DNA from: Flavihumibacter soli
Lineage (GTDB): Bacteria > Bacteroidota > Bacteroidia > Sphingobacteriales > Sphingobacteriaceae
Assembly: GCF_010692725.1 (NCBI RefSeq)
Contig: NZ_JAAFZB010000093.1
Span: 186,001-250,000 of the forward strand
Reading direction: 5' to 3'
DNA: 64,000 nt
Below are positions 25,110-56,037 of the stretch, piece by piece. Position 1 is the stretch's first letter, and every line of letters begins with the position of its first letter. Under the pieces are notes generated by a model. The model was not told the origin of the DNA, made no database searches, and was given only the letters and a program-made list of their open reading frames with translations. The position numbers were made by a program, and so were the translations under genes.

Positions 25110-26228
25110 GTGAATTATTCCTTCCTGCTTATATTTTTTATTTTCCAAATTACTTTCATAATCCAGCTCTATTACACGCTGATGATCCATCAACGGTTGG
25201 CTGCTTACAAAAGCAAACCTTTCGGAGGTACTGACACGAAATTGCCGGTTTCGATAATTATTTGTGCGCGTAACGAGTATCAGAATCTACAGCTGAACCT
25301 GCCTTCTATCCTGCATCAGGATTACCCAGATTATGAGGTCATCCTGGTGAATGATTGCTCAAGCGATGATTCTGATATTCTCTTAAGACAGCTTTCCAAG
25401 GAGTATCCTCATTTGAAAGTAGTCACAATTACAGAGCATCAAAGATTTAAGCATGGTAAAAAGTTTGCAGTCACGCTGGGGATAAAAGCATCGAAGAATG
25501 AGCATCTTTTATTTACAGATGCAGACTGCAAACCCGCTAGTGATCAATGGATCAGTCGTATGCAGTCGAATTTTCAAAATAATAAAGAGATCGTGTTGGG
25601 ATACTCTCCTTATGAGAAGCTTTCGGGCTTTGTCAATCTCCTTATCCGTTTCGAAGCTTTCCTAACAGCCCTAAACTACCTTTCGTTTGCTTTGAGCGGG
25701 CGTCCCTATATGGGCGTGGGTCGTAATATGGCCTATAGAAAATCGTTATTTTTCAAAGGAAAAGGGTTCGCTTCGCATATGCATATACTCTCCGGTGATG
25801 ACGATCTGTTTGTAAATCAAAATGCAACAAGCAGAAATACAATCATCGAAATTCACCCTGAAGCCCACGTATGGAGTGAGCCGAAGAAGAGTTTGGGCGC
25901 ATACTTTAAGCAAAAATTAAGGCACCAGGGGGCTGGAAAGCAATATAAGAAAGGGCATAAAGTAATGTTGAGCCTGCAGGCAGGGTCAGCCATCTTATTT
26001 TATATTACGCTGATCACTCTTATATGTATGCAGGCTCAGTGGTGGTTCCTTTTGGCCCTATATCTGATCAGGTTAATAATTCAAATTTTGACTTATTATC
26101 CAATATTGAAGAAGTTGAATTATGCCGACCTGATCTGGTGGCTTCCGGCTTTCGATTTCATTTATTACTTTTATATGCTTACCCTTGGTATCTTTATACT
26201 GTTTAAGAAGAATATAGAATGGAAGTAA
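25110..26228 (+). CDS. Glycosyltransferase family 2, membrane-bound
   Basis: A 372-residue protein. One N-terminal membrane helix (about 4-24) is followed by a GT-A domain with V-N-D-C-S-S-D-D-S-D and the DxD-type F-T-D-A-D-C-K, then S-G-D-D-D-L-F-V and K-L-R-H-Q-G-A-G-K. Two or three helices end the protein. It likely adds sugar to a lipid or polysaccharide on the cytoplasmic face. The start is GTG at 25110. The sigma factor gene overlaps its last 10 bp. Confidence 0.87.
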   Translation: MNYSFLLIFFIFQITFIIQLYYTLMIHQRLAAYKSKPFGGTDTKLPVSIIICARNEYQNLQLNLPSILHQDYPDYEVILVNDCSSDDSDILLRQLSKEYPHLKVVTITEHQRFKHGKKFAVTLGIKASKNEHLLFTDADCKPASDQWISRMQSNFQNNKEIVLGYSPYEKLSGFVNLLIRFEAFLTALNYLSFALSGRPYMGVGRNMAYRKSLFFKGKGFASHMHILSGDDDLFVNQNATSRNTIIEIHPEAHVWSEPKKSLGAYFKQKLRHQGAGKQYKKGHKVMLSLQAGSAILFYITLITLICMQAQWWFLLALYLIRLIIQILTYYPILKKLNYADLIWWLPAFDFIYYFYMLTLGIFILFKKNIEWK

Positions 26229-48960: not shown

Positions 48961-51018
48961 ATGTCTCAAAAGGTAACCGTGGGCACACCCATGCATAATG
49001 AAATTCCAGACTATCCGAATATTCAGAAGATAAAGAAAGCTGCAGCACTTTTTATTAACTCCGCTCTTGCTTTGTTTACGGCGTTTATAGTTATCCGGAT
49101 AGGAGAGTTCGTACTTATCCTGATGAACAACGACTTGCCGTCAGAGTCTGTTAAGGTTGTATCCGAAGCTGTGTTATTTGACCTGATCTTTTTTCTCAAA
49201 CTTATCCCTATACTCTTTATTCCTTTCGTTATCCTGTATTTTATAATAGGGAATAAGAAAGTAAACCATGTGATATTCGGAATTCTGGGTACAATTTTCA
49301 TTTTGGGATACGTGTTATTGATCAGATACTTTGGTACTGCGCTCGTGCCCCTGGGCGATGATCTTTTTAGTTACTCCCTAGAGGAGATTCAACAAACCAT
49401 AGCTGGGAATAGTGCCTTAGATTTGATATCGATATGTCTGGTGATAATACCAATAGTTTTATTCTGGGTATTGTTGTATTTTTTTTCCACCAGGAAAATT
49501 GTAAAATCAATGTACGCCTACCTTATACTAGGTACCGGAAGTATGCTTGCCTATCTTGGAATATCTGCACTTCCCTCAGGCGCTGCATTTAAGAACGAAT
49601 TTTCTTATAACCTGTCACTCAATAAAGCTGCTTTTTTTTCTGAAAAAACGATCGCTTATTTTAGTCAACCGGATACAGTTATTTCAGAACTCAAGTCAAC
49701 TTCAGTTTTACAACCTCCCGTTTTATCTGACGGCCAATTATTTAAGTATACTAACGCAGATTATCCATTTCTACGGGAAGATAATTCAACAGATGTCCTC
49801 GGTGAATTCTTTACGATTGACTCCTCAAAAAAGCCCAATATTGTTTTTATTCAGGTTGAAGGTTTAGGAAGAGCATTCAGCGGGAAAAATGCTTACCTGG
49901 AAAGTTTTACTCCTTTTTTGGATGAGCTTGCAGACAAAAGCTTGTACTGGGAGAATTTCTTAGCTTCCCAGGGAAGGACATTTGCTTCATTACCCTCAAT
50001 CCTGGGCTCCTTACCTTTTGCAGATCAAGGCTTTAGTGACCTGGGTTCGCAGATGCCCAAACATTTCTCTTTATTGAATATCCTTAATCAAAACGGTTAT
50101 TTAAGTAAGTTCTACGGAGGCTTTGAAATGGGCTTCGATAACCAGGGAATATTTATGTCCAAGTCGGGAACGAAGCTTATTGTCAGTTCTGAAGATTATG
50201 AGCATGGATTCAAAAAAGCGTCGAGCTGGGGATATTCAGACCGCGATTTAATGTTGAAATCTATTCAGACTGAAGCTAAGAATCCGCAGCAGCCTTTTGT
50301 GACATACCTGGAAACTATCAGTATGCACACACCTTACACGGTTCCTAACCAGGATCAGTACATTAAGATGTTTGAGAAGAGAATGAGATCGATGAACTTT
50401 GATGATAAAAAGCAGAAAAGCTACAATCAGTATAAGGAGATCTATTCGTCAATCATGTACACTGACGAAGCGTTGCGTTTCTTTTTCGCTGAATATGCAA
50501 AACTTCCGGCCTTTAACAATACCATTTTCATCATAACAGGTGATCACAGGTTGCCTGAGATTCCAATGTCAACCAAGATCGACCGTTATCATGTGCCGTT
50601 AATCGTGTATTCTCCCATGTTGAAGCGTACGGCGTCTTTCAAATCGGTGTCCTCACATTTAGATATAACACCATCGCTTGTGTCTTTTATGAAGTCAAAT
50701 TACCGTATCAACACACCTGCACAGGTCGCCTGGGTTGGTTCCGGGCTAGATACGGCAGCAACTCTACGTAATATCCACAGGTATCCTTTAAAACAGACCC
50801 GGAGTTCCCTTCATAACTATATTTCAGGTCTCCACTTCATTGATCAGGATCAGTTATTTAAGGTGTCAGATAATATGGGGTTAGTCCCGGTAACAGATCA
50901 GGTGGTTTATAACCGTCTGCAGAATGAATTTACTTTTTATAAAAATCAGAACAATAAGTTCAAGCAGCAATTGAAACTGATACCTGATAATTTGTACGAT
51001 GGTTTCATCAAGAAATAA
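48961..51018 (+). CDS. LtaS-like membrane sulfatase/phosphotransferase
   Basis: A 685-residue protein with five N-terminal membrane helices (about 28-225) and an extracytoplasmic sulfatase-fold domain. F-I-Q-V-E-G-L-G-R holds the first metal ligand, S-Q-G-R-T-F-A-S-L-P the probable threonine nucleophile, H-T-P-Y near the middle, and T-G-D-H-R the late metal pair. This is the layout of lipoteichoic acid synthase, OpgB/EptA and relatives. A Gram-negative has no lipoteichoic acid, so transfer of phosphoglycerol or phosphoethanolamine to a glycan or lipid is more likely. Confidence 0.87.
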   Translation: MSQKVTVGTPMHNEIPDYPNIQKIKKAAALFINSALALFTAFIVIRIGEFVLILMNNDLPSESVKVVSEAVLFDLIFFLKLIPILFIPFVILYFIIGNKKVNHVIFGILGTIFILGYVLLIRYFGTALVPLGDDLFSYSLEEIQQTIAGNSALDLISICLVIIPIVLFWVLLYFFSTRKIVKSMYAYLILGTGSMLAYLGISALPSGAAFKNEFSYNLSLNKAAFFSEKTIAYFSQPDTVISELKSTSVLQPPVLSDGQLFKYTNADYPFLREDNSTDVLGEFFTIDSSKKPNIVFIQVEGLGRAFSGKNAYLESFTPFLDELADKSLYWENFLASQGRTFASLPSILGSLPFADQGFSDLGSQMPKHFSLLNILNQNGYLSKFYGGFEMGFDNQGIFMSKSGTKLIVSSEDYEHGFKKASSWGYSDRDLMLKSIQTEAKNPQQPFVTYLETISMHTPYTVPNQDQYIKMFEKRMRSMNFDDKKQKSYNQYKEIYSSIMYTDEALRFFFAEYAKLPAFNNTIFIITGDHRLPEIPMSTKIDRYHVPLIVYSPMLKRTASFKSVSSHLDITPSLVSFMKSNYRINTPAQVAWVGSGLDTAATLRNIHRYPLKQTRSSLHNYISGLHFIDQDQLFKVSDNMGLVPVTDQVVYNRLQNEFTFYKNQNNKFKQQLKLIPDNLYDGFIKK

Positions 51019-51479: not shown

Positions 51480-51508
51480 AAAGGCCTCTGTTTATAGCAG
51501 AGGCCTTT
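51480..51508. terminator. Hairpin between convergent genes
   Basis: AAAGGCCTCTG and CAGAGGCCTTT form a perfect 11-bp stem with a 7-nt loop. T-rich tails are modest on both strands (minus: TTTACTTTTG). It may end the minus-strand operon that stops at 51700. Confidence 0.5.
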
Positions 51509-51699: not shown

Positions 51700-52938
51700 C
51701 TAAAACCGATGTTGGATACCTGCGCTAATGGTAAATTGATTTCCAAATGTTGCGGTTGAATACTCCTCGTTCAGGTAACTAGCACTTCCCGATATTATCA
51801 ATCGCTTGGTGACGTTTCGGGAATATTCGATACCAGCTTTCAGGCTTTTCAAATTTCTATTGATATCGATGTTACGGGCGCGATCATCCGGCGAAAACCC
51901 TGTGCCGCCGCTGATTCCGAAATAATCATTGCGATCGTCGCTCAGGTAAAACCGGCTGTAAAGGTTAAATGATTTAGAGAACTGGCCGTCTCCCGGACCA
52001 ATATATGACCTGAGCCCAAAAAAGCTATTGCCGAAATATCGTCCCATTCCTACAACGTATAAGATCGTCGCCGAGTTGAACTTCAGATACCGCACACCTC
52101 CTTCTGCTTCAAAGCTCAAGGGTAAACTTTTGTATAGTGACACCCCAAAGCGATGCCTTGAGAAAATACTACTGTTTGAAAATGCTGCCCCCACATAGGC
52201 ATATAAACCATTTGTTATTGCCGGGTAGGAATTAGTTTCAAATTCTACACCGTTTGTATTGAAGCGGTTCGCATAATTTACCTGAAAATTTAGAGTTGCA
52301 AATGGGGTAACACGTCCATAAGAGAAGTTCGCCATGTGCCATGGTTGCGCAAAACGCTTATCAAATGAAGAGAAAGTGTACCCGTAAGTAATATTGTTTT
52401 TCAGGTTTGCATCCTTCAGGGATCGAAGCGATTTAAGAGCCTCTTTGCTTTCCGGATTTTTTCTGATGAAACTTTCAGTCACATCAATCGCCGCTTGCGG
52501 TTTTTCTAAAGCACTTAACACTTTTACTTTCTTCAGGACCAGTTCCTCAGAATTTGGATAATGCTTTAATGCCTGGTCAACAATTTCAAGTGAACGAGGC
52601 AAATTCTTGTTCCAGTATTCGAGATCAAAGCTGGCGTTAAGTGCGTCTTCATTAGCGGGATCCTTTTGCAGGACAGCCTGAAACTGAGTCCGGGCGCTGT
52701 CCGGGGAATCGCTCCAGGTATATACTCGTCCAAGCATGATCCGAAGATCACTGTAATCAGGACTTTGGCTAATGGCTGTCTTTAACAGGCTAATTGCTTT
52801 TGGATAGTTTTTTTCCTGTCTGATTGCCGACTGTGCCGATTTTAACAGATCATCAGACGATATATTTTGCTGACTAAAGGCTCCGGTGGATACCAAAGAT
52901 AGGAGCATAATCAGGGTTGATCTAAGTATAGAGCGCAT
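51700..52938 (-). CDS. TPR plus outer-membrane barrel protein (YaiO family)
   Basis: A 412-residue exported protein with a signal peptide of about 22 residues (ending AFSQ). Residues about 25-175 contain four or so TPR units (Y-P-K-A-I-S-L-L-K-T-A-I and L-R-I-M-L-G-R-V-Y). From about 190 to the end is a YaiO-type barrel with alternating strands, ending S-A-G-I-Q-H-R-F. The TPR-then-barrel order is that of PgaA, the export porin for poly-N-acetylglucosamine. It is the last gene of a four-gene operon, 14 bp after the processive glycosyltransferase. Confidence 0.85.
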   Translation of the reverse strand: MRSILRSTLIMLLSLVSTGAFSQQNISSDDLLKSAQSAIRQEKNYPKAISLLKTAISQSPDYSDLRIMLGRVYTWSDSPDSARTQFQAVLQKDPANEDALNASFDLEYWNKNLPRSLEIVDQALKHYPNSEELVLKKVKVLSALEKPQAAIDVTESFIRKNPESKEALKSLRSLKDANLKNNITYGYTFSSFDKRFAQPWHMANFSYGRVTPFATLNFQVNYANRFNTNGVEFETNSYPAITNGLYAYVGAAFSNSSIFSRHRFGVSLYKSLPLSFEAEGGVRYLKFNSATILYVVGMGRYFGNSFFGLRSYIGPGDGQFSKSFNLYSRFYLSDDRNDYFGISGGTGFSPDDRARNIDINRNLKSLKAGIEYSRNVTKRLIISGSASYLNEEYSTATFGNQFTISAGIQHRF

Positions 52939-52952
52939 AAAAAGTGCGGTAT

Positions 52953-54506
52953 TTAAGTTAATGAATTGGGGACGGGATCAGTTTTGAAGGTCTGGGCTGG
53001 ATTTTTAGCTAGTTTATAGTTTTCTACAGGCAGACCGTTCGAATCAGTTTTTTGGGAAACTGTTTCGCTCAAAACTAATTGTGCTGGGGCCTCCATTTCC
53101 ATTCTACCCATGTCTCCCCATTGATGTCCGGTTGAAAACATTAATGATAGATTTCCTTTAATAGACGACAAGATAATCAGGGGGTGATAAAAAAACGGCT
53201 CTAGAAAAACGACCATCAACAGCTGAAAAATTTCCTTCTTTGATTTATAAACCTGATTTGTATACTCTTCCCAGATAATACTCACTGTTGTAATCATGAC
53301 TGCATAAGAGAATACAAAGGCAAGAAGGAGTAAGGAATACTCGATGTTAATCAGGCCGCAGACTATCAGGTAAACATAGATCAACAAGCCAAAAAATTCA
53401 ATTAAGGGTGCAAGCCATTCATAAAAGATCCAGTAAGGAAAACTAATCAAACCGAGTCGTCCGTACTTAGAATTAAACCACATCTTACGATGATCTAAGA
53501 GCGTTTGTACGAGGCCCTTTGTCCACCTTACTCTTTGCTTAATGAAGATATTCAAGTTTGGAGGTACTTCAGTCCAGCACAATGACTCGGGAATATACTT
53601 AACCTGATAGTCAATCCTCAGATTATTCATATATTTCCTCATCCTAACGGTCATCTCCATATCTTCACCAAAGCTTTTGGTGTCATAACCACCAACTGCA
53701 ATTGCAACCTTCTTATCAAAGAGTCCGATCCCACCGGATACGATAATAAGTCCATTGATCTTACTCCAAGCCATCCGTCCAAGGAGAAAAGAACGTAAAT
53801 ATTCAACTTCTTGGATACTTGTAAGAAAGTTTTTAGGAGCCTTAACATTAACTAAGAAACCCTGTTCAACATCACACCCGTTAGCGATACGAATTACCGC
53901 ACCGTTTGCAATCACACGCTTTTCCTCGTCGATAACCGGTTTAATAAGTTTTAATAGCGCCTGGTTGTCAATTATACAATCAACATCACAGCAGACATAA
54001 TAGGGATTCGAAGCTATATTGATACCGGTGTTCAAAGCATCCGCCTTGTTTTTCCGGTTTTCTTTATCAAGCACGATCAGTTTGCTGTAAGCAAGATTGG
54101 TCGATTTATAAATTCCTCTTATCGGACCAGTTGTTATGTGTTCATGATATGCGAAATCAACCTTTACGAGATCAAATTCTCTAACTAATTTGACCAGTGT
54201 ACTGTCAGAGCTGCCATCATTAACGATAATTACTTCATATCTGGGATATTGAAGCGAAAGAAGTGAGTGAACGTTACTAATAATGGTCTTACCCTCATTA
54301 AAGGCGGGTGCTACTATCGAGATTGCGGGTGTATAAGGAGAACTTAAAAGCTTTTTAAAATCAATGAATGAGTTTTTTCTTTTATATAAAAGTATTTCAC
54401 GTATTGAGATCAGTGAAATAATAAGATACCAGAGCATGATGGAGCTGGCAAAAAAGAAAACGAAGTGATTGTAATTTACGATTACTGAGTTCCAGATCTC
54501 TTGCAT
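52953..54506 (-). CDS. Processive glycosyltransferase family 2, membrane-bound (PgaC/HasA-like)
   Basis: A 517-residue protein. One N-terminal helix (about 14-34) precedes a GT2 domain with V-N-D-G-S-S-D-S-T, D-V-D-C-I-I-D, G-E-D-M-E-M-T-V-R-M, and Q-R-V-R-W-T-K-G (the QxxRW motif of processive synthases). About four helices follow (370-475). The cytoplasmic tail after about 475 is polar. It likely polymerises a beta-linked polysaccharide and moves it across the inner membrane. Start and preceding stop overlap as TAATG. Confidence 0.9.
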   Translation of the reverse strand: MQEIWNSVIVNYNHFVFFFASSIMLWYLIISLISIREILLYKRKNSFIDFKKLLSSPYTPAISIVAPAFNEGKTIISNVHSLLSLQYPRYEVIIVNDGSSDSTLVKLVREFDLVKVDFAYHEHITTGPIRGIYKSTNLAYSKLIVLDKENRKNKADALNTGINIASNPYYVCCDVDCIIDNQALLKLIKPVIDEEKRVIANGAVIRIANGCDVEQGFLVNVKAPKNFLTSIQEVEYLRSFLLGRMAWSKINGLIIVSGGIGLFDKKVAIAVGGYDTKSFGEDMEMTVRMRKYMNNLRIDYQVKYIPESLCWTEVPPNLNIFIKQRVRWTKGLVQTLLDHRKMWFNSKYGRLGLISFPYWIFYEWLAPLIEFFGLLIYVYLIVCGLINIEYSLLLLAFVFSYAVMITTVSIIWEEYTNQVYKSKKEIFQLLMVVFLEPFFYHPLIILSSIKGNLSLMFSTGHQWGDMGRMEMEAPAQLVLSETVSQKTDSNGLPVENYKLAKNPAQTFKTDPVPNSLT

Positions 54507-55657
54507 TAGGCGGAAAGTTTGGTGTCCAACATATGCAGCACTACGCTCTTATTCTCCTCAGGTACTGTTTCGAGGAGCCTGAATAATCGCTCTTCACCCA
54601 TTTCTCCATGTCTTTTAAGGGCTTTTGCTGCTTCAAAGCGGGTGCTGAAATCGGTGTTAAATACAAGGTCGCTCAGGAAATTAAGCGAATCACCGGAACA
54701 AATTTTACCCGTTGTTTTAATAATTTCTAAACGACATTCCTGCGTCTCATTCCGGAAGTGGATTGTCAAATGCTGTTCAAGGTCGACCAGGCTGAGATCG
54801 CCAACTGCTGTTATCACTTCTTTTCTTACCTCTTCATTAGGATGATTGAACAGCCTGAGGAGGTCTTTAACTGAGTCTATTTGGTGAAAACGCACCGTTA
54901 AGCGGATACAGAAGATTACAACCGAATCATTAGCGGACGTAAACCACTTTGAAAATACAGGTAGCTTTATATCCTTATTGCGATTCAAAATATCCATCAA
55001 ATTGATTTGATGAAAGGTTAATAAGTTCTGATTGGTATAGTCTAAAAACACAAAAGGATCTGTCTGGCTTGCCTGTAGATAACCGCTTTGAGCCTGCATT
55101 CTTAGGGTGATGTTCCTGCTATTGACATATTGAAGAAAATCACCTGCTGATTCCTGGATACCCATTTCTCCCAATTCAGCTATGCCTTCAGCTTTGTTAA
55201 ACCATCGCCAGCTTCGTAACTTCTTCTGGGAGTGCTTCTGGAGTTCAAGCGAAGTGTATATCCTGCTAATTAGTGTGTTTACTTTTCCGGAGAAGTTTCT
55301 GTGAAGGAAGATAAGCTCATTAATTATTAATTGCCTTACCAGCCTTTTTTTCAAAGGCAGTTTTTTCAGGTTTTCGGTAATTTCAATAATATGTTCATCT
55401 GTGTAATCCTCACTGGTGAAAGCTATAATGGAATTCGTAAGAATATTTTCAATCTCCGCTTTCCATTTCTCCGCTTTCTTATTCACCGAAGCTTGCACTA
55501 CCCTGCGGGTAAAGACCAGCAGGTAGCAAAACATTGTTACAAAAAAAGTAAGGAAGATCCCGACATAAGCGACTTTTATTATTAGCGGATACGCCAGGAA
55601 ATGATTATTATAAAATTCCTTAATAAAAGCAGGAAGAAAATTGTAAAGTTTTTCCAT
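54506..55657 (-). CDS. Membrane-anchored HEAT-repeat protein
   Basis: A 383-residue protein with one membrane helix at about 25-48 (V-A-Y-V-G-I-F-L-T-F-F-V-T) and a long helical C-terminal part. HEAT-type repeats are visible as L-L-R-L-F-N-H-P-N-E-E-V-R-K-E-V and F-S-T-R-F-E-A-A-K-A-L-K-R-H-G. HEAT solenoids bind proteins. Its place between a response regulator and a glycan synthase suggests it links regulation to the synthase, which is inference. Confidence 0.8.
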   Translation of the reverse strand: MEKLYNFLPAFIKEFYNNHFLAYPLIIKVAYVGIFLTFFVTMFCYLLVFTRRVVQASVNKKAEKWKAEIENILTNSIIAFTSEDYTDEHIIEITENLKKLPLKKRLVRQLIINELIFLHRNFSGKVNTLISRIYTSLELQKHSQKKLRSWRWFNKAEGIAELGEMGIQESAGDFLQYVNSRNITLRMQAQSGYLQASQTDPFVFLDYTNQNLLTFHQINLMDILNRNKDIKLPVFSKWFTSANDSVVIFCIRLTVRFHQIDSVKDLLRLFNHPNEEVRKEVITAVGDLSLVDLEQHLTIHFRNETQECRLEIIKTTGKICSGDSLNFLSDLVFNTDFSTRFEAAKALKRHGEMGEERLFRLLETVPEENKSVVLHMLDTKLSA

Positions 55658-55662
55658 CCTGT

Positions 55663-56037
55663 TTACTTTAACATCAACAGCCTTTTCACTCTGATCGAAA
55701 ATTCAGGCAGGATAAAGGGCTTCGTTATAAAGTCATTTGCACCTAATTTAAAGCCTTCCAGTACGGTGTCTTCCAAGCCTGTGGCTGAAATGATAATAAC
55801 GGGTATATCTCTTCTTTCAGGGTTTTGTTTGATCTTTGCCAGTATCTCCAAACCGTTAAGGTAAGGCAACATAATATCTAGTATGATAAGGTCATAGTAA
55901 TTGGCCTCTATTTTGGCAACGCCCGTTTTACCATCAAGGGCAGTGTCGACTTCGTGACCGTCTTTTTTTAACTGGAATTCAATCGTTCGGTTCATCAGAT
56001 TTTCATCTTCTATGACCAGAATTCTACTTTTTTTCAT
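55663..56037 (-). CDS. Stand-alone response regulator (CheY-like)
   Basis: A 124-residue receiver domain with no output domain. E10-D11 with the phosphoacceptor D54 (L-I-I-L-D-I-M-L-P), S84 and K106 (I-T-K-P-F) are all present, so it should be phosphorylated. No kinase is adjacent. It starts the operon with the HEAT, glycosyltransferase and TPR-barrel genes and would act through protein contact. Confidence 0.92.
   Translation of the reverse strand: MKKSRILVIEDENLMNRTIEFQLKKDGHEVDTALDGKTGVAKIEANYYDLIILDIMLPYLNGLEILAKIKQNPERRDIPVIIISATGLEDTVLEGFKLGANDFITKPFILPEFSIRVKRLLMLK

Follow-up and report, generated by a model that had tools for sequence, protein, structure and literature searches.

A putative synthase-dependent polysaccharide system of Bacteroidota with a response regulator and a HEAT-repeat protein in place of cyclic di-GMP-binding parts

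How might a bacterium switch a processive polysaccharide synthase without cyclic di-GMP (c-di-GMP)? In the known synthase-dependent systems, a c-di-GMP-binding regulatory domain or co-polymerase is part of the definition, and c-di-GMP regulates them (PMC7112194). The question is raised by a locus of Flavihumibacter soli, which was analyzed within a stretch of 64,000 nucleotides (contig NZ_JAAFZB010000093.1, positions 186,001 to 250,000; henceforth the window). Here, one minus-strand operon (51700-56037) encodes, in this order, a stand-alone response regulator (RR), a membrane-anchored HEAT-repeat protein, a family 2 glycosyltransferase (GT2), and a TPR protein ending in an outer-membrane barrel; RR and HEAT genes are separated by 5 bp, HEAT and GT2 genes overlap by 1 bp, and 14 bp lie between GT2 and the TPR-barrel gene. 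The original prediction had taken this operon for a four-gene cassette for polysaccharide export. Its coordinates, spacings, and strand proved correct upon re-checking, and its domain assignments were borne out by Pfam (Table 1). The four genes are thus real, but the cassette was incomplete: a gene for an LtaS/OpgB-like membrane enzyme, overlooked at the time and convergent with the operon, also belongs to it. The combined evidence suggests, with a probability of roughly 0.62, an undescribed synthase-dependent polysaccharide system of Bacteroidota, which would be controlled by a two-component phosphorelay instead of c-di-GMP; the weakest links of this reading are the contact between RR and HEAT and the pore.

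Conservation of the gene set across Bacteroidota

When the single HEAT protein of the window was used as the query against genome contigs, no relative was found, because HEAT diverges fast, and a 51-row HEAT alignment contained no stretch conserved enough for scanning; the conserved GT2 was used instead. Scanning with GT2 alone yielded at least 583 relatives, the best 80 of which (loci L111-L190; all Bacteroidota, at least five families) constitute the GT2-ascertained set. The HEAT-ascertained set consists of 57 loci; neighborhoods of the stronger HEAT matches from a search of 392 genomes of the phylum were retrieved for it, and a handful of genomes are common to both sets. HEAT was situated directly upstream of GT2 in 78 of the 80 GT2-ascertained loci (the remaining two start at or near a contig end) and directly preceded it, on the same strand, in all 57 HEAT-ascertained ones. 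RR was found directly upstream of HEAT in 68 of 80 loci, from several families, and upstream of it in 40 of 57, as a stand-alone protein in 39 and as a receiver inside a hybrid kinase in one (L102). Synteny of RR, HEAT, and GT2, as opposed to scattered homologues, on which the original prediction hinged, therefore holds across Bacteroidota, with HEAT-GT2 as the invariant pair of the set and RR as a modular part. The TPR-YaiO barrel gene was nearby in 69 of the 80 and in 50 of the 57 loci, and a kinase was present in 42 and 20, respectively. The LtaS-like enzyme was encoded in 32 HEAT-ascertained and 64 GT2-ascertained loci (33 of the latter with the enzyme fused to GT2), although the share of 64 in 80 is biased upward because the enzyme is fused in the seed, whose nearest relatives these loci are.

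HEAT homologues were present in 13 of 60 relatives, the order RR-HEAT-GT2 being kept in nearly all of them, at HEAT identities down to ∼24%. The host genome contains a single match to this HEAT family, and the system has a patchy distribution within its own genus, where 7 of 19 other genomes have it. Across the phylum, 161 of 392 genomes matched HEAT, which is probably an overestimate because weak matches (E above ∼1e-20) resemble generic HEAT repeats, being partial. Despite being the fastest-evolving part (mean identity of 32% vs 66% for GT2), HEAT has distances that correlate most closely with those of GT2 (r 0.86). The correlation was equally high between GT2 and the LtaS-like enzyme (r 0.86), and ranged from 0.74 to 0.86 among HEAT, GT2, LtaS-like, and YaiO proteins in general, while RR distances tracked those of these four parts less well (r 0.55-0.63). 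Some genomes contain the system more than once: HEAT-GT2-YaiO is doubled in tandem in L083 (7144-17943), and G018, G030, G035, and G199 have two copies each, on separate stretches.

Synthase, decorating enzyme, and exporter

The motifs of a processive GT2, which the original prediction had recognized by QxxRW, are present in the window protein (D97, D174-x-D176, E281-D282, and Q324-x-x-R327-W328) and each is kept in at least 135 of 137 homologues. Transmembrane (TM) segments flank the GT domain on both sides, and the protein is 24% identical to E. coli PgaC over 352 amino acids (E 2.5e-26). These features support its prediction as an inner-membrane polysaccharide synthase of the processive type. 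PgaC is also its best curated match, but the score of 128.7 bits does not reach the cut-off of 422.3. A WGxMxR motif (residues ∼463-468), which is found family-wide and just before the point where GT2 of relatives is fused to the LtaS-like enzyme, might be a docking or gating element. A second membrane GT2, which has no HEAT partner, is encoded at 25110-26228 of the window.

The LtaS-like enzyme was linked to the operon via its orthologues. A profile made from relatives, with the window sequence left out, scored the window protein at 757.6 bits and the next protein of the genome at 96.4 bits; judged by this profile, it is the genome's only member of its subfamily. In many relatives, the GT2 frame either continues into, or directly precedes, such a membrane protein of the sulfatase superfamily. 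On a GT2 tree of 134 rows, the distribution of the fused state requires nine changes, at least five of them forced by well-supported branches; GT2 and the LtaS-like protein have therefore been joined or split repeatedly, and this history is strong evidence that both would act in the same pathway. In L101 and L107, the enzyme is encoded on the opposite strand, the layout seen in the window. By hydropathy, about five TM segments precede an extracytoplasmic sulfatase-fold domain, in which the active-site residues E300, T340, H456, D528, and H529 are intact, so that both the multi-TM N-terminus and the E, T, H, D, H residues of LtaS/OpgB-type enzymes are found. The best PDB matches were VP1736 and LtaS, with LtaP also among the best, and the best NCBIfam match was LtaS, at 55.3 bits far from the equivalog cut-off of 970. 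With Thr (T340) in the nucleophile position, the enzyme appears to resemble LtaS, OpgB, and VP1736, not true sulfatases. One subgroup (family f26; L081, L082, L085, L086, and L088) deviates by the loss of nucleophile and metal residues: TGDH is changed to, for example, TGSH, TGNK, or TSTA, which suggests a pseudoenzyme. The LtaS-like proteins of this subgroup have a C-terminal TPR domain and its HEAT proteins are extended to ∼680-860 amino acids.

As for the TPR protein, TPR and barrel were indeed found combined in one polypeptide, and the barrel belongs to the YaiO family (PF19413, 176.9 bits, cut-off 23.9; TIGR04390, 147.3 bits, cut-off 32). Its AlphaFold 2 model (mean predicted local distance difference test score, pLDDT, of 90.6) shows 14 strands in addition to nine TPR helices. 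Among PDB folds, E. coli BcsC matched it best (E 3.5e-9); OmpG, CymA, FadL, and PelBC were also listed. The TPR domain is coupled to a predicted outer-membrane pore. The barrel equals that of OmpG in size and is smaller than those given for known synthase-dependent exporters. Since OmpG and CymA are 14-stranded open pores, the barrel could still be one.

Beside YaiO, 37 of the 80 GT2-ascertained relatives encode a further membrane-anchored protein, X390 (e.g., L026:13258-14439, minus strand), for which no Pfam or NCBIfam match was obtained. Its model (pLDDT 86) matched GH42 enzymes as well as the folds of ThuA and of class-I glutamine-amidotransferase-like proteins, and there was a weak match to the deacetylase Agd3. 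The host genome lacks X390, and a search for a decayed copy, both there and in the 680 bp that separate the YaiO and LtaS-like genes, found none.

Control parts

The window RR retains the acidic pair, the phosphorylatable Asp, the Ser/Thr, and the Lys of an active receiver. The Asp, already emphasized in the original prediction, is also kept in all aligned stand-alone homologues but one (L087). The HEAT protein has one N-terminal TM segment (about residues 32-50, by hydropathy), which agrees with the membrane anchor claimed for it before. Positive charge follows this segment in 75 of 77 homologues carrying it, the mean net charge being +3.8 after and ∼0 before it. By the positive-inside rule, this bias predicts that the HEAT repeats are cytoplasmic, like the GT2 catalytic domain and the receiver. 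HEAT is a candidate relay or adaptor between RR and GT2. Fusions of RR to HEAT or of HEAT to GT2, which could have proven such contacts, were not found in the loci examined. HEAT frames of 680-935 amino acids had been considered as HEAT-GT2 fusions but were rejected: these loci have a GT2 gene of its own, and what lengthens the frames is further HEAT-like or unmatched sequence.

None of the 67 HATPase_c matches of the genome falls inside the window, in line with the earlier remark that no kinase is nearby. The missing kinase is a feature of this locus only, because about half of the relatives encode a histidine kinase adjoining the RR, in many cases a PAS/GAF hybrid with Hpt. Searches of Pfam and NCBIfam revealed no PgaD, PilZ, or BcsB domain in the operon, and their absence, noted before for PgaD and c-di-GMP domains, extends further: neither GGDEF nor PilZ had a match anywhere in the host genome. 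Only 1 of 60 relatives matched GGDEF, whereas several control genomes with known c-di-GMP signaling did match. Given that both domains are lacking, control by c-di-GMP is not available to the host, which seems unable to make this messenger.

From these parts, the following mechanism is proposed. A histidine kinase, encoded elsewhere in the host genome and next door in many relatives, would phosphorylate the stand-alone receiver, which would then bind the membrane-anchored cytoplasmic HEAT protein. The latter would serve as a regulatory subunit of the synthase and alter the activity or the assembly of GT2. In the inner membrane, GT2 would polymerize and translocate a glycan, and the periplasm-facing LtaS/OpgB-like enzyme would attach phosphoglycerol or phosphoethanolamine, the head group of a phospholipid, to the emerging chain or to a linked acceptor. 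Within the YaiO protein, the TPR domain would guide the chain, and the barrel would let it cross the outer membrane.

The convergent YaiO and LtaS-like genes are separated by a region in which a hairpin likely terminates transcription of the operon. Its statistics are weak, as the region holds 5 such sites vs 4.0 expected, but the one listed has the longest stem and lies in the expected place.

Table 1. Features of the locus and the evidence for their assignment (positions refer to the window).
Feature	Position	Strand	Evidence
Stand-alone response regulator (RR), single receiver domain	55663-56037	-	Pfam PF00072 E 1.1e-26; homologue alignment; synteny
HEAT-repeat protein, membrane-anchored	54506-55657	-	Pfam HEAT_2 E 2.5e-11; charge bias; synteny
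GT2, processive-type polysaccharide synthase (predicted)	52953-54506	-	Glycos_transf_2 E 1.3e-20; Glyco_tranf_2_3 E 1e-15; motifs; PgaC similarity
TPR + C-terminal YaiO-family outer-membrane β-barrel, candidate exporter	51700-52938	-	PF19413 E 4.7e-52; TPR_19 E 1.9e-17; TIGR04390
LtaS/OpgB-type membrane phospho-transferase, candidate polymer-decorating enzyme	48961-51018	+	PF00884 E 1.6e-36; PDB matches; orthologues fused/adjacent to GT2
Symmetric hairpin, likely operon transcription terminator	51480-51508	-	11-pair stem, T-rich tail; between convergent YaiO and LtaS-like genes

Known systems, alternative readings, and implications

The locus shares with Pga, Bcs, Alg, and Pel (PMC7112194) the inner-membrane GT2 of the processive type, a putative periplasm-facing modification enzyme, the combination of TPR with an outer-membrane barrel, and the grouping of genes in one or two adjoining transcription units. 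It differs from them in that a c-di-GMP-binding domain or co-polymerase is replaced by a stand-alone receiver and a membrane HEAT protein, the candidate modification enzyme is LtaS/OpgB-like, and the barrel is of the YaiO family, with its 14 predicted strands. As judged from its sequences, the gene set would work like a synthase-dependent polysaccharide system, yet one distinct from Pga, Bcs, Alg, and Pel, because the c-di-GMP part is missing, the cut-offs for PgaC and LtaS are not reached, and the barrel is different. The survey cited covers five polymers, the present system not being among them, and its text mentions neither YaiO nor HEAT. Searching the open literature (YaiO with glycosyltransferase, HEAT, or Bacteroidetes; LTA-synthase fusions), which leaves aside subscription papers, returned no description of this gene set.

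Partial likenesses exist elsewhere. The yaiS-yaiP-yaiX-yaiO cluster of E. coli K-12 (L110, NC_000913 380069-384616) also combines a GT2 (YaiP) with YaiO and glycan-modifying enzymes. The latter are a deacetylase and an acyltransferase, not LtaS-like, HEAT and RR are absent, YaiO has 257 amino acids, and a single-sequence search between the two YaiO proteins gave no significant match. In this strain, yaiX is split by IS2. Cellulose modified by BcsG is a functional analogy, as a GT2 glycan is decorated there by a sulfatase-fold phosphoethanolamine transferase and exported by the TPR-barrel protein BcsC, but Bcs is under c-di-GMP control, and sequence similarity between BcsG and the LtaS-like enzyme was not detectable. 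With OpgB (phosphoglycerol transferase I) and LtaS, the window enzyme has the sulfatase fold in common, and the Thr nucleophile position and the metal-binding residues align; unlike them, it stays far below the curated equivalog cut-offs and belongs to a family often fused to GT2 in a HEAT-linked synthase cluster.

Could the polymer nevertheless be poly-β-1,6-GlcNAc (PNAG), made by a divergent Pga system? PgaC being the best curated GT2 match and the TPR part being weakly similar to PgaA would fit, but this is very unlikely: besides the GT2 score lying far below the PgaC cut-off, the deacetylase PgaB and PgaD were not found in the locus, the barrel is of the YaiO family (the PgaA model scored 41 bits vs 366.65, within the TPR part only), and HEAT and LtaS-like proteins are foreign to Pga. 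Quite unlikely, too, is a teichoic acid-like pathway, in which GT2 would make a glycolipid or short glycan primer, the LtaS-like enzyme would polymerize a poly(glycerol phosphate)-type polymer, and YaiO would tether or guide it. The frequent fusion to GT2 would suit such a pair of primer synthase and polymerase, and LtaS and LtaP rank among the best matches of the enzyme; however, the LtaS score is far too low for an equivalog, GT2 has QxxRW and the layout of a processive synthase closest to PgaC, and HEAT-GT2-YaiO persists where the LtaS-like enzyme is absent or catalytically degraded. OpgB and BcsG, moreover, are established cases in which sulfatase-fold membrane transferases simply decorate glycans. 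That unrelated genes became neighbors by chance can be practically dismissed, as nothing favors it beyond the opposite strand of the LtaS-like gene in the window, and the synteny of RR, HEAT, GT2, and YaiO refutes it, as do the distance correlations, the LtaS-like profile score, and the repeated fusion.

The control proposed here competes with a constitutive role of HEAT, which might be an assembly or stability subunit of GT2 while the co-transcribed RR acts elsewhere, be it on transcription via a partner or as a shared phosphorelay sink. The invariance of HEAT-GT2, but not of RR, and the lower correlations of RR distances are consistent with this explanation. It is nonetheless considered unlikely, as RR directly precedes HEAT in most GT2-ascertained loci, which span several families and in which a hybrid kinase often accompanies it. 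A receiver that lacks an output domain must, moreover, work through contact with other proteins, and the prediction puts the HEAT domain on the receiver's side of the membrane. Several observations weigh against a phosphorelay-controlled synthase with a decorating enzyme and an export pore. The membrane topology is based on simple hydropathy, and in 17 of the 57 HEAT-ascertained loci the place directly upstream of HEAT is not taken by RR; RR is therefore modular and need not act on HEAT. In the window, the LtaS-like gene forms a unit of its own, convergent with the operon; 40 of the 134 loci on the tree (some of which are truncated) have no such gene, and in the f26 subgroup it encodes proteins without the catalytic residues. 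Species history also contributes to the correlations between distances of the parts, and export becomes less certain as the 14 predicted strands of YaiO compare with 16-18 in the synthase-dependent exporters known so far (PMC9601211).

Tentatively, the locus may even represent a new class of synthase complex, in which GT2 would be allosterically switched by a phosphorylated single-domain RR via a dedicated HEAT subunit, in lineages without c-di-GMP, and which would make a new glycan decorated with phosphoglycerol or phosphoethanolamine, since many species have the decorating enzyme and the synthase in a single polypeptide. Known Gram-negative synthase-dependent systems are described as controlled by c-di-GMP, yet nearly all relatives searched here lack GGDEF. 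A phosphorelay acting through the receiver on the HEAT subunit is a candidate answer to how such bacteria switch a processive synthase. The proposal predicts that a decorated extracellular polymer occurs in such common genera as Mucilaginibacter, Pedobacter, Sphingobacterium, Chitinophaga, Chryseobacterium, and Pontibacter, and the natural fusions of GT2 and transferase could be used for structural work. It also suggests a role for the YaiO family, which has been functionally blank so far.

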